Virus record (IMG/VR): IMGVR_UViG_3300037189_002866
Coordinates: 1-20,426 of that record
Direction: 5' to 3' (one strand)
Origin: a virus
DNA: 20,426 bases
Part shown: piece after piece, positions 6,308-20,426 of the stretch
Layout of the letters: the number at the start of each line of letters is the position of its first letter
Position numbering within the stretch: position 1 is the first letter of the stretch
Translations under genes and position numbers: made by a program
Notes under the pieces: generated by a model
Databases searched by the model: none
What the model saw: the letters and a program-made list of their open reading frames with translations, nothing else
What the model was told of the DNA's origin: nothing

Positions 6308-7363
6308 TCAATGCTCCGTTAATTGCAGGCGGTATGTCTCGCCATGTTCCGCCGCGCCTAACCGGCGATACAAAGCCCCAATCCGAGGCCCCGAACCGCG
6401 TTTGCCGGCTTCCCAAAAAACCTCATTCACGCCGCGATCGCGCAATTCCTGAAGCGCGAACCGCTGAATCTTGCCGCCCAATCCCGGTAAACCTGGATCG
6501 GCGTAGAATGTCGTATTGGTTGCAGATAGGATGCCATCATTGACCAAAGATGGCGAAAGAACAGTCATCAGGTAGCCGAACATCCGGCCATTGCTGCGCG
6601 CGGTCACAATCTGCATTGCGCCGATACGTTCCAACGCATCAAATAACGCCCAGTTCTTGGTTTGCCATTCGCGCGGGTCTTCACCAACAATCGCGCAATG
6701 TTCTTCAAACAGCTTTTTGCCATCCTTGCGCCATGTAGCGCAATCTTCGACTTGAAGTGTGACGGTCTCAGGATCGGTAACCGGCTTAAGCACCAGTTCC
6801 TTCAACTCATAATGCTTTGCAACCGACGCCAGCTTTTCCAGTTGGGGCCGAAAAGCGACCGCGTACCGCGTCATCATGCGCATATCGCATTGCACGTTGA
6901 CCGATGCCCACCGCGCCCAGTGCAAGCTATCATACTTGTATGGAAGGCAGTGCTCAAAAACCTTAGCGCAAATCGCCTCATCATTCAGTGCGTCAAATTC
7001 AACCACCAGTGCGCCCGGTATACGCTTTGCGGCTTGCCGGAGTTTTGCTTCAAGCCTGCGCATGACAGGTTCAGACGAAGCCGGATCAAACCCTAGCCGC
7101 ACCAGACTTTCCACCACATCACGCACCGGACGCCGCACGATGACAACACGAACATCAGGAGCCAAACGAAGCAAGGTTCGCCACCATGGAGCCGCCGCCG
7201 TTTCAGCACTGCCCACATACCCCATGCCAATCCAAGTTTTTACATCATCGAGCGACCGCGCGTGCCGCAACTCCTCGTGGCCGCAAATATAGTCACCGTA
7301 CGTCAGGAATTTAGCCAACCAAGCAGTGCGCGACCTTGGCAGGCCCAAAACAATGAACCTCAT
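6308..7363 (-). CDS. Sulfotransferase-like / GNAT acetyltransferase-like fusion protein (351 aa)
   Basis: Two enzyme-like parts are visible. Residues 1 to about 170 look like a P-loop sulfotransferase: GLPRSRTAWLAKFLT at 7-21 matches the 5'-phosphosulfate loop, CGHEE at 27-31 is a usual follow-on in short bacterial members, and RRPVRDVVESL at 77-87 matches the 3'-phosphate-binding element. Residues about 180-350 resemble a GNAT acyltransferase, with a YADPGLPGLGGKIQRFALQE segment at about 287-306 in the place of the acetyl-CoA loop and helix, and LYRRLGAAE near the end. By family, the first part would move sulfate from PAPS and the second an acyl group from acyl-CoA. The gene sits among fibre and ejection genes, so a target on the virion or the host envelope is plausible but inferred. 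GGAG lies about 12 bases before the ATG, which is long. Loss of either activity is possible. Confidence 0.75.
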   Translation of the reverse strand: MRFIVLGLPRSRTAWLAKFLTYGDYICGHEELRHARSLDDVKTWIGMGYVGSAETAAAPWWRTLLRLAPDVRVVIVRRPVRDVVESLVRLGFDPASSEPVMRRLEAKLRQAAKRIPGALVVEFDALNDEAICAKVFEHCLPYKYDSLHWARWASVNVQCDMRMMTRYAVAFRPQLEKLASVAKHYELKELVLKPVTDPETVTLQVEDCATWRKDGKKLFEEHCAIVGEDPREWQTKNWALFDALERIGAMQIVTARSNGRMFGYLMTVLSPSLVNDGILSATNTTFYADPGLPGLGGKIQRFALQELRDRGVNEVFWEAGKRGSGPRIGALYRRLGAAEHGETYRLQLTEH

Positions 7364-14185: not shown

Positions 14186-16087
14186 TTAAGCTGCACCCTT
14201 TTCTGGCGCGTGCTGATTAGCCAAGCGTTCAAGCGACTGCGCAACCATCTGTTGCTTTGCAAGCAAGCGGTCAGACTGCATCTGCGCCTGCTGCATCCCA
14301 GCCATAACACCGGCCTTGAATAGATCATTCTGCGGCTGCTGCGCCTCAATAGCCGTACGGACCTGCAAGTGCTGCGCCTGCGCCGCTCTGTGAGCCGCGC
14401 TGGCCTGCTTTTCCTGCACATCGGCTTGCATAGCCGCCTGCTGCATCTGCGCCTGCGGGTTAGGCTGTTCCGCCTGCTTTTGCATGGCCTCGATAATCTT
14501 GCCCTTGCCGGGGAGCGAGGAAGCCTGAAGCAACAAGATAGGATCGATCGGCACGCCGTTGCGGCGAAGCTCGACCAGCGCCATGAATTGCTCTTGCTCC
14601 ATGTTTGCATTGTGCGGCGTGGTGTCGAGCGTGATGTCCACATCCATTTCGCCAAGCGCGTTCTTGTAGCCGAGAACAGGCTTCACAATCGCAGGCATTC
14701 CAGATGCCGGATCAACGCCAATCTGAGGCGGTCCATATTCCGGCTGATTGATGCAGACGTACTGTGCCGCCCCCGCGTCATCGGTCACGCGCACGTAATC
14801 CGGCGCTTTCCAGAATTGCTTGGCACGCGACCACATCTGGCGGTAAATCCGCAGTTCCCAGCTTTCAATCCCACCGAGGACTACAGCCAATTCCGTCAAA
14901 CCGGCATTCTGGCGCACAAGCTGCGCACGCCCGCTTTCCTCATTGCCCAGACGCCCGAGAATAGCCGGGTTAGGTGCGAGCCGCTGAATATCAAGCTTGG
15001 CCGTTTCGAGTAACTGAATCTGGATCGCCGCCACATCATTCATGGCAACCGGCTTCCAGCCAATCGGGATTACCCCGTCAGGCTTGGCAGCCTCAGAGCG
15101 CACGGTTTCCGCATTGGCATTCAGTGCCAGTTCGTTTTCCGCAAATACCTGGCGATTGTTCAGAATGTGGAGCAGCTTGGAATGCCGCTTGTTCACTTCA
15201 TCCTGAAGCGGGCGCATGTCCCGCACCACGCCATAGCGGTTATTGTCCCGATCCACGAAGCACGATTGCGCTTCAATCGGATTCGAGGGCTTGCCGTCAA
15301 GGTCAAGGTAAGGCGACGGCCCTTCCTCTAGCAGCTTGTCGCCATAGAACACGCAGCGCGCCCATTCGCCGGTGTCGTTGTAATACATTTCGACCAGCAT
15401 GACACGGCGCAGCTTCTTGTCGTACCACTGGCCGTTTTGCGCGTGCGGACGATCCATAAATGAAGGATCAAGCGGACCAGAACCCCAGGCATCAATTGCG
15501 CTGTCAACGTCCCCAGCGTCGGGATACATGCGCTTCAGGCTGTCCGCATAAATCCACTTGGCAATACCCATATAGCGGGCATCCTTCAAATCCTTACGCC
15601 GAGCGCGCGGATCATAGAAGAACTCTTCCCAGCGAATCTGAGTAACCGGAACCGAGCCCGAGCCGTCACCCTCGACAATCGCGGCGCAGGTGCCTTTCGT
15701 CATGTAGTCGCCAGCGGCTTCCATGCGAATTTCAGCAAAGGCAGTCTTGTCCGAAAGATAGCGCAGCACCTTGGTTGCTACGCCTGCCGTTTCATCGTCA
15801 TCGGGATTGCGGCCCCAAGCCTTGGGATCGGTGCGGCCTTGCTTCAATACCCCAAGAATGCCCAGCACAGCCTGCCTGACAACGTTGTTCGTCGTGTCGG
15901 GTTGCTTCCGCAGGGCAAGCGCGCGGCGCTCCGTAGGGGTCCATTGGTAGCCGTGGAAATAGTCGTCGTCGATCTCGCAATCGCGGCGCGCTTCCGCCGT
16001 CATGTCGCGCGCTTCCATGAAGCGGCGCTTCAAGGTGACAAGCGTTTCCTGCCCCACGTCAGGAGCAGCGGTCAAACTATCCGCCAA
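14186..16087 (-). CDS. Portal protein, P22-type (633 aa)
   Basis: The start is TTG at 16087: GGGAGAG lies seven bases before it, while the first in-frame ATG (16018) has no ribosome site and would cut the conserved front. The N-terminal region (RRDCEIDDDYFHGYQWTPTE, then QPDTTNNVVRQAVLGILGVL) and the stem region with RWEEFFYDPRARRKDLKDARY match the P22 gp1-like portal family. The last 130 residues are a Gln/Ala-rich coiled coil, comparable to the barrel of P22 portal; P22 portal is longer (725 aa). The dodecameric portal forms the packaging vertex and binds the terminase and the gp4 adaptor. The gene overlaps the end of the terminase large-subunit gene by 16 bases. Confidence 0.88.
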   Translation of the reverse strand: MADSLTAAPDVGQETLVTLKRRFMEARDMTAEARRDCEIDDDYFHGYQWTPTERRALALRKQPDTTNNVVRQAVLGILGVLKQGRTDPKAWGRNPDDDETAGVATKVLRYLSDKTAFAEIRMEAAGDYMTKGTCAAIVEGDGSGSVPVTQIRWEEFFYDPRARRKDLKDARYMGIAKWIYADSLKRMYPDAGDVDSAIDAWGSGPLDPSFMDRPHAQNGQWYDKKLRRVMLVEMYYNDTGEWARCVFYGDKLLEEGPSPYLDLDGKPSNPIEAQSCFVDRDNNRYGVVRDMRPLQDEVNKRHSKLLHILNNRQVFAENELALNANAETVRSEAAKPDGVIPIGWKPVAMNDVAAIQIQLLETAKLDIQRLAPNPAILGRLGNEESGRAQLVRQNAGLTELAVVLGGIESWELRIYRQMWSRAKQFWKAPDYVRVTDDAGAAQYVCINQPEYGPPQIGVDPASGMPAIVKPVLGYKNALGEMDVDITLDTTPHNANMEQEQFMALVELRRNGVPIDPILLLQASSLPGKGKIIEAMQKQAEQPNPQAQMQQAAMQADVQEKQASAAHRAAQAQHLQVRTAIEAQQPQNDLFKAGVMAGMQQAQMQSDRLLAKQQMVAQSLERLANQHAPEKGAA

Positions 16088-18897: not shown

Positions 18898-19344
18898 TCA
18901 GTCGGTGAGCCCATCAGGCCCCGTCAGTTGTGCGCGGTTCTGCATGGCAAGCACGCTGGGCGACGGTGAATTGCGCAGCAGTGGTGTTGCTGTTCCGTTG
19001 TGCGCTGCCAGAAACGGATGACCCCAATCGTAGCGATCCTTCGGCTTCATCAGGTCAAGGCATTCGCGGATCGTCGGGAAGAACGTGCAATTGGCCTTGA
19101 GCAGCTTGGTAAGCTCGACAAACCCTTCTTCGCTCAGGTACTGCAAGCTTTCGTAATACTCGGCAATCAGCCACTTTTCGGATTCGGTGTCGCCGGTATC
19201 CTTACAGCGAAAGAGAAGCGCCCAGCGTTGGTATTCGCGGACAAACGCCCGCTTATGGCCCGAGGAATGCAAGGGCTTCGTCTGCCGCGCGCTGCCTTGC
19301 GCTTCGGTGATCTGCGCCGCTAGTTGTCCGAATTGGTTTGCCAT
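18898..19344 (-). CDS. Possible helicase loader-like replication protein (148 aa)
   Basis: I choose the ATG at 19344 (AGGA nine bases upstream) over a TTG six bases earlier. The gene overlaps the initiator gene by 92 bases, unusually long for this window. The central part is helical (KRAFVREYQRWALLFRCKD, YESLQYLSEEGFVELTKLL) and contains FFPTIRECLDLM, reminiscent of the short FPT-type turn in phage P/G39P-like helicase-loading proteins. The C-terminal 40 residues look disordered. The position directly behind an O-like initiator is that of lambda P. Similarity is weak, so the loader role is inferred mainly from order. Confidence 0.55.
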   Translation of the reverse strand: MANQFGQLAAQITEAQGSARQTKPLHSSGHKRAFVREYQRWALLFRCKDTGDTESEKWLIAEYYESLQYLSEEGFVELTKLLKANCTFFPTIRECLDLMKPKDRYDWGHPFLAAHNGTATPLLRNSPSPSVLAMQNRAQLTGPDGLTD

Positions 19345-19906
19345 TGCCAAATTTCCTGTTGTTCAAAACCCAAGTTGACCAGGCCGCTTGCCAATCCACA
19401 AAACAGTCACCCTTCTTCCGATGATGTGCGCGGAAGTGTTCAAGCTGGTGCGCCCGTTCGCCCGGCGGCCAACCATCCTCGACAGCGCGGCTCTTGGTGC
19501 CCGCGCCAAACGGTTCAGGCTCAAAATCATCCGGCAGCGGATGGGCTTGCGCCTTCTCTCTCTTAGTTTTGACGGTTCTTGATGGTTTGGGTGCAGATTT
19601 TGCGGGGGTGTCCGGAAAATCTTGCGGGGGTGCAGATTTTGCGGGGGTGCAGATTTTGCGGGGGTCCAATATGTATTTGGCACTAGTCCCGTTCCGGCAA
19701 TCGCGGCGAAAATACCCATTTTCTTCCAGCCAGCGCAAAGCCATCTGCACAGTGCGCTCGCTCTTGCTAGTCTTGCGGCACAATGTCGCTACCGATGGCC
19801 AGCACAAGCCCTCATCATTGGCATGGTCGCAAAGACTCATCAGCACCATCTTTTCGGTGGAGCCGATGTCCAAATCCCATGATGCAGAAAGAAGCTTGAT
19901 GCTCAT
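19253..19906 (-). CDS. Replication initiator, helix-turn-helix (lambda O-like role) (217 aa)
   Basis: The ATG at 19906 overlaps the stop of the nuclease gene by four bases (ATGA). Residues 7-80 form a winged helix of the HTH_36 type: SASWDLDIGSTEKMVLMSLC, then SVATLCRKTSKSERTVQMAL and RWLEENGYFRR. A Pro/Ala/Lys linker follows at about 82-105 and is encoded by 17-bp repeats read in different frames (PRKIC, TPAKSA, PPQDF, PDTPAKSA). The C-terminal part with DCFVDWQAAWSTWVLNN resembles the end of many phage O-like initiators. In lambda, O binds iterons inside its own gene and recruits the helicase through P; the layout here is the same. A transcription regulator is the alternative. Confidence 0.75.
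   Translation of the reverse strand: MSIKLLSASWDLDIGSTEKMVLMSLCDHANDEGLCWPSVATLCRKTSKSERTVQMALRWLEENGYFRRDCRNGTSAKYILDPRKICTPAKSAPPQDFPDTPAKSAPKPSRTVKTKREKAQAHPLPDDFEPEPFGAGTKSRAVEDGWPPGERAHQLEHFRAHHRKKGDCFVDWQAAWSTWVLNNRKFGNGKPIRTTSGADHRSARQRAADEALAFLGP
19590..19662. repeat. 17-bp iterons inside the initiator gene, candidate replication origin
   Basis: The plus strand has three exact copies of GGTGCAGATTTTGCGGG at 19590-19606, 19629-19645 and 19646-19662, plus a 22-base degenerate copy between the first two (19607-19628, starting GGTG and ending TTGCGGG). The last two are directly tandem. Each unit contains the inverted pair GCA..TGC. Repeat length is not a multiple of three, so the protein is not repeated in one frame, which points to selection on DNA. 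T-rich DNA flanks it at 19555-19590 and an AT-rich stretch at 19665-19680. Confidence 0.7.
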
Positions 19907-20391
19907 TTGCGGCGCACCACCCATTCGCCGATTTGCGCTGCGCAACCGCGTGCGTCTCGATGAATTTCGCTGCCAGAAAAGCGCATGACGGGAATGCCTT
20001 GTGACGCAAACCAACGGTCACGCCGCTTGTCGCGACTCACCTGATCCGGCGCCGTATGCCATTCACGCCCATCACACTCGACAGCGAGGCGCTCGCATGT
20101 GAAGCTATCAATAACGACAATATCGGCGCGATACTTGCCAATCCGAACCTGCGTCCGAGCAACGTACTTTTCAGTCAGGTCATTGTGGAAAAGCCAGCCC
20201 CGAATTGCCTGAAGCAACTTCAATTCAATCGGGCTCTCGGTATCGGTGTCATCATCGCCAGCCAGCGCGCAAAAAGTCTGGCCTATCCAACGTTCCCGAT
20301 GAAACGATTTACGGTCGCCGCGTTTACCTTGACACGGAGTCTTCGCTGGTGCGCCACACTTCGGGCAATGCCGGTCATAAGCGTGCGTCAC
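19903..20391 (-). CDS. Zinc-ribbon plus DUF559-like PD-(D/E)XK endonuclease (162 aa)
   Basis: The start is GTG at 20391 with GGAGG seven bases upstream. Residues 10-34 hold CPKCGAPAKTPC and a later SFHRERW, the C-x2-C..C..H..R pattern of a small phage zinc ribbon. Residues about 52-160 look like a Vsr/DUF559-type nuclease: ESPIELKLLQAI supplies an N-terminal Glu, KYRADIVVID the metal-binding Asp, and LAVECDGREWH the E-x-D/H centre, followed by DKRRDRWFASQGIPVMRFSG. By family such proteins cleave DNA, and in phages they may take part in recombination, packaging or host DNA damage. It directly precedes and is coupled to the initiator gene. Target and partner are unknown. Confidence 0.8.
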   Translation of the reverse strand: MTHAYDRHCPKCGAPAKTPCQGKRGDRKSFHRERWIGQTFCALAGDDDTDTESPIELKLLQAIRGWLFHNDLTEKYVARTQVRIGKYRADIVVIDSFTCERLAVECDGREWHTAPDQVSRDKRRDRWFASQGIPVMRFSGSEIHRDARGCAAQIGEWVVRRK

Positions 20392-20426
20392 GCCAGCGCC
20401 TCCACAAACACATGCAGCCCCGGCAC
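20388..20426 (-). CDS. C-terminal end of an upstream gene (partial)
   Basis: A frame open to the right edge ends with TGA at 20388, giving the terminal residues VPGLHVFVEALA. Its stop overlaps the GTG start of the nuclease gene (GTGA), the same coupling seen elsewhere in this block, which is the only reason to believe it. Too little is present to name it. Confidence 0.4.
   Translation of the reverse strand: MPGLHVFVEALA

Follow-up and report, generated by a model that had tools for sequence, protein, structure and literature searches.

A probable lambda-type origin inside a phage HTH_36 initiator gene, with iterons that co-vary with two helix residues

We have identified an array of four 17-bp iterons inside the replication initiator gene of a phage, which very probably marks a lambda-type, self-contained origin with iterons cognate to the initiator. 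The window analysed here is the whole 20,426-base virus record IMGVR_UViG_3300037189_002866 of IMG/VR, in which a terminase and a P22-like portal are also encoded. Its last minus-strand genes are an endonuclease-like gene, the 217-aa initiator P0001 and a 148-aa protein without a family (Table 1). Our computations revealed the array, selection on its DNA, co-variation of the iterons with their cognate protein, and exchange of the N-terminal domain and the iterons as a module.

By family, P0001 is a phage replication initiator. Residues 14-65 match Pfam HTH_36 (PF13730) at E 2.3e-16 (59.8 bits, gathering cut-off 25), and the protein matches PHROG 1032, replication initiation protein (E 2.6e-23), PHROG 391, O-like (E 3.6e-19), PHROG 270 and others; PHROG 1408 and 3992 match residues 111-205. 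The preliminary description of this DNA had spoken of an O-like initiator. The role of initiator stands, but kinship with lambda O does not: lambda O is not among the matches of the HTH_36 profile at E 1e-5 and so has no detectable sequence relation to the family. In the AlphaFold model (mean pLDDT 85.5) the winged helix and the helical C-terminal domain are confident, and residues of about 81-120, the stretch encoded by the repeat block, are poorly ordered (block mean pLDDT about 61-73). A sequence search of P0001 against solved structures gave no match, and a fold search returned winged helices of a generic kind, all of them with E-values of 1e-3 or more; no lambda O structure was among these, an absence that proves nothing.

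HTH_36 relatives sit among early genes, beside repressor, Cro, replication P, NinG or DnaB-like helicase genes. Just upstream of P0001, a gene at 19903-20424 (minus strand) joins a phage zinc-binding motif to a Vsr-like/DUF559 nuclease domain; phage VSN-002 has at the same place a T5orf172 protein, of the type to which the origin-directed nuclease Odn belongs. The only ATG of the downstream gene P0002 lies inside the initiator gene, with an out-of-frame overlap of 92 nt (19253-19344), and its true start may be unusual. Among the structural genes of the window, a 351-aa ORF at 6308-7363 (minus strand) appears by eye to be a sulfotransferase-like and acetyltransferase-like fusion.

Table 1. Features of the initiator gene and its surroundings (window positions).
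Feature	Position	Strand	Remark
Initiator gene P0001, 217 aa	19253..19906	-	HTH_36 winged helix N-terminal, disordered linker, helical domain C-terminal
Winged-helix DNA-binding domain, residues 1-80	19667..19906	-	Pfam, AlphaFold model, fold search
Predicted recognition helix, residues 50-62	19721..19759	-	AlphaFold model; E50 and M55 co-vary with iteron (mutual information ranking)
Iteron 1, ACCCCCGCAAAATCTGC	19649..19665	-	exact
Iteron 2, exact copy of ACCCCCGCAAAATCTGC	19632..19648	-	
Iteron 3, degenerate ACCCCCGCAAGATTTTC	19615..19631	-	
Iteron 4, exact copy of ACCCCCGCAAAATCTGC	19593..19609	-	start 22 bp past iteron 3 start
AACCRTCA repeat copy 1, AACCATCA	19580..19587	-	
AACCRTCA repeat copy 2, AACCGTCA	19570..19577	-	10 bp beyond copy 1
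Inverted repeat CATCCGCTGCCGGATG, 6-bp stem	19528..19543	-	weak alone; relatives enriched for hairpins at same place
C-terminal domain, about residues 121-190	19337..19546	-	AlphaFold; exchanged independently of N-terminal domain and iterons
Next gene of operon P0002, 148 aa, no family	18898..19344	-	occupies the position of lambda P

The coding-strand (minus) unit ACCCCCGCAAAATCTGC occurs as three exact copies and one degenerate copy directly after the HTH_36 coding region. This is the pattern reported in the preliminary description, whose coordinates, 19590-19662, were right to within a few bases. Seen on the plus strand, the exact 17-mer is TGCAGATTTTGCGGGGG, at 19592-19608, 19631-19647 and 19648-19664, and no further copies were found in the whole record at up to 2 mismatches. 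Each iteron in the window is composed of ACCCCC and, after it, an 11-bp dyad, GCA-N5-TGC, in which a 5-bp spacer separates two 3-bp arms. On the minus strand the iterons start at 19665, 19648, 19631 and 19609, in steps of 17, 17 and 22 bp, so that the 17-bp period holds throughout except for the 22-bp step leading to the fourth iteron. The copies therefore occupy all three frames, and successive iterons are translated as PRKIC, TPAKSA, PPQDF and TPAKSA.

That selection acts on the DNA of the repeat block and not on the protein, as had been proposed from the copies lying in different frames, is supported by two comparisons. Among exact repeats whose offset is no multiple of 3, the longest in the P0001 gene measures 27 nt, against a maximum of 16 in 1,000 synonymous-codon shuffles and 7-11 nt in the other large ORFs of the window. 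Between P0001 and its closest relative (L004, N-terminal domain 83% identical), synonymous differences occur in 32 of 66 conserved HTH codons, as opposed to just 1 of 26 conserved codons of the repeat block (Fisher p 2e-5 vs HTH). Because the shuffles never reach 27 nt and the synonymous sites of the block are frozen, we place the constraint on the DNA. It might be argued that the repeats are a proline-rich linker at the protein level, or the outcome of replication slippage, without any DNA function, since prediction gives the linker little order and tandem arrays are prone to expansion. Such an account is extremely improbable, given units that lie in three frames and are never reproduced by synonymous shuffles, frozen synonymous sites, and arm bases that co-vary with single helix residues as described below. 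The protein-repeat explanation in particular was rejected, being contradicted by the shuffles and the frozen synonymous sites.

A proposed check on the array was that the iteron should co-vary with the recognition helix among relatives, and residues 50 and 55 indeed track the arm bases. Across the 149 unique domains that have two or more ACCCC[CT]G units (residue positions in P0001 numbering), D at position 50 goes with A at arm base 2 in 35 of 36 cases and E with C in 91 of 103; all 12 of the E exceptions carry R at position 55. Where R stands at position 55 (after VQ), base 3 is C in 20 of 21 domains, as against 0 of 128 with any other residue, and the single R exception (L356) has mixed arms. 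Exceptions to the code include L048, L602 and L605. Position 50 explains 91% of the base-2 entropy (next best domain column, 40%) and position 55 explains 82% of the base-3 entropy (next best, 29%). On chemical grounds, contacts of arginine with a C:G pair, and of E or D with C or A, would be plausible.

As read from these sequences, then, two helix residues predict repeat letters, E or D giving C or A at arm base 2 and R giving C at base 3, and the rule survives a phylogenetic test. To see whether shared ancestry could produce the co-variation, dependent and independent models of evolution were compared on a tree of the short domain from which the helix columns had been removed, fitted on the loci in which the rule was noticed; the likelihood ratio in favour of dependence was 72.8 (p 6e-15) for position 50 and base 2 and 69.6 (p 3e-14) for position 55 and base 3; six other variable columns used as controls gave p 0.09-0.58. 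Strongly supported branches offer only few independent tree pairs, of which 4/5 and 3/4 are concordant and none opposite, and greedy pairing of closest domains gives 25/26 and 17/18 concordant. Two loci, L074 and L055, are 98% identical outside the helix, yet differ in E/D and in GCA/GAA.

With the hypothesis fixed in writing beforehand, we ran two follow-up scans based on DNA only. GAA arms led to D in 12 of 14 new domains and GNC arms to R in 14 of 14, although some of the new domains are near training domains (identity 0.49-0.98 outside the helix). The four GNC-scan domains with D all have GAC, which matches the prediction of the combined rule. Since the two residues predict the repeat letters, the initiator and its origin seem to evolve together, each matched to the other.

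Iterons within the initiator gene are not a peculiarity of one phage; judging by the sequences sampled, HTH_36 initiator genes that contain them form a large class. Close relatives that share the domain also carry the repeats, a comparison to which the preliminary description had pointed. The 17/17/22 layout is kept in Sphingopyxis phage VSN-002 and in Microcystis phage Mvi-Yong1342-1, where the unit is ACCCCCGAAGCGGCTTC. An annotated telomere resolvase in VSN-002 (L636, at 14717-15835) implies that the prophage of this phage may be a linear plasmid. In a scan of IMG/VR with ACCCCCG-N10-ACCCCCG, the remainder of the unit being left free, 69 among the 120 matches listed fall within HTH_36 ORFs, every one of these 69 on the coding strand and none on the opposite one, whereas the reversed pattern of equal composition gave 0 among 120 matches listed inside such ORFs. 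The 51 listed matches outside HTH_36 genes we attribute to chance, because the 120 listed for the control include none inside. When 80 loci were sampled by protein instead, 61 had at least three units and 10 had two, so that 71 of 80 have at least two; the remaining 9 visibly carry variant units such as ACCGGTGGCAAAATCTGC or CCGGCATCACATGCC. When genomes drawn evenly from two classes were searched for further prophage arrays, almost none came up.

Dyads of other clades differ in sequence (GGGCAGGAGCTGCCC, TGCCACCAGATGGCA, GTGCAAATTTTGCAC), and the preferred geometry is one of 3-bp arms with a 5-bp spacer, found at 140 of 211 loci against 2.7 in shuffled sequence. In two loci (L389, L394) the variant iterons ACCGGTGGCAAAATCTGC accompany an altered helix, CRRSLQ or CKRSLQ. 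The ACCCCC half, otherwise constant, changes there with the start of the helix, which suggests a further determinant of specificity.

Directly after the last iteron comes a second frame-independent repeat, AACC[A/G]TCA or AACCAGTCA. It is present in 191 of 207 related linkers, with 573 copies compared with 69 in synonymous shuffles, typically at a spacing of 10-12 or 17 bp and in all three frames, and it is common to clades with unrelated iterons; none was found in lambda O. In the window, an AT content of 52% after the last iteron compares with 44% for the gene, and in 126 relatives the 40 nt after the last unit average 52% AT against 39% for the gene; the lambda value is 78%. Hairpins with stems of at least 6 follow the iterons at 46% of related loci, compared with 5% in shuffled sequence. 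In L004, L013, L137 and L425, hairpins of differing sequence (e.g. GTATCAGCTAACGCTGATAC) lie about 10-40 nt past the AACCRTCA repeats.

The closest N-terminal relatives of P0001 (L004, L137, L568) have unrelated C-terminal domains, and its closest C-terminal relative (L005) has an unrelated N-terminus. The DNA-binding domain and its iterons therefore travel as one cassette. The same movement is described for pPR9, in which an HTH_36 (PF13730) N-terminus replaced the pSK41 RepA_N domain along with the origin, and which replicates (PMC5703833). Such exchange near the array would also be expected if the repeats were recombination junctions for swapping initiator modules, with initiator binding a secondary matter. 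We consider this most improbable; it gives no reason to expect that arm bases track residues 50 and 55, or that a dyad with a 5-bp spacer is conserved, and a preserved match between domain and iterons accounts for their joint movement.

The mechanism that we infer for the proposed origin involves binding, a dimer, DNA opening and helicase loading. The HTH_36 winged helix would bind the four 17-bp iterons within the DNA that codes for its own linker. The dyad would most simply be read by a dimer, one recognition helix per arm, with residue 50 reading arm base 2 and residue 55 reading arm base 3. A nucleoprotein array of iterons and initiator would then form, and the adjoining DNA, with its AACCRTCA repeats and hairpin, would open. 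The C-terminal domain may recruit the replicative helicase or a helicase loader, in the manner of lambda O (PMC5043065). GC skew in two complete relatives shows no switch at the gene in L636 and a switch only near the gene in L637.

The main rival to an origin is an operator: the repeats could be an array that the HTH_36 protein binds to regulate its own gene or to control incompatibility, with the origin elsewhere. Binding by a cognate protein would explain the co-variation equally well. However, the array lies about 240 bp inside the gene rather than at a promoter, PHROG annotates the family as replication initiators, and the gene region of pPR9, with its HTH_36 N-terminus, supports autonomous replication (PMC5703833). 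An operator in place of an origin is accordingly unlikely, while repression and initiation may coexist.

How initiator and origin change specificity jointly without loss of function has usually been discussed on the basis of a handful of lambdoid phages. The present system keeps both partners within a single gene; every phage sequenced thus supplies a matched pair, of which there are hundreds. We lean somewhat towards a general scheme, a large family of exchangeable origin cassettes in HTH_36 phages and prophages, in which a two-residue code would set specificity and a specificity-independent AACCRTCA element, often followed by a hairpin and shared between clades whose iterons are unrelated, would serve one joint step, for example opening or helicase loading. 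The E/D and R rules yield single-substitution predictions, for which L074 and L055 are a natural one-step switch, and would allow origins and compatibility groups to be predicted from sequence for many uncharacterised phages. Neither the residue-to-base code for the HTH_36 family nor the AACCRTCA element was found described when an open-access library was searched, which is no proof of novelty. Iterons inside initiator genes, and initiators that differ in their iterons, are already known (PMC7466680, PMC8022706 and PMC5703833), and HTH_36 proteins have been noted in replication regions, without iterons (PMC8951638).

Among known systems, lambda O with ori-lambda is one of the closest. The preliminary description had already likened the array to the lambda arrangement, with a different sequence and an HTH_36-type domain, and Pfam bears out the latter. 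In both systems four iterons lie mid-gene, just past the DNA-binding domain, and the units are dyads with a 5-bp spacer (CCCTC-AAAAC-GAGGG in lambda, read from NC_001416). The lambda iterons bind O dimers (PMC5043065), and related phages (P22, phage L gene 18) carry different iterons in their own initiator genes (PMC8022706). Unlike lambda, P0001 has a different unit with an asymmetric ACCCCC element, and the neighbour of its array is only mildly A+T-rich and bears AACCRTCA repeats.

The RepA_N plasmid initiators provide a second parallel. In pSK41 and pPR9, origin boxes lie inside the rep gene and encode a dispensable linker between the winged-helix N-terminal and the C-terminal domains, and N-terminal domain and origin swap as a unit (PMC5703833). 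These are staphylococcal plasmids, unlike the phage of P0001, and the text consulted describes no residue-to-base code for them. RepA_N (PF06970) is not among the Pfam matches of P0001 up to E 0.1. Initiator structures 4pql and 4pt7, which we take to be RepA_N proteins, are among its fold matches, a generic winged-helix likeness that does not imply descent. Finally, Odn and PLE RepA of the Vibrio phage ICP1 satellites resemble the system described here in that the specificity of the initiator and the semi-palindromic iterons can be exchanged as cognate modules (PMC8263062). They differ in that the PLE origin is noncoding and that RepA_N belongs to another domain family.
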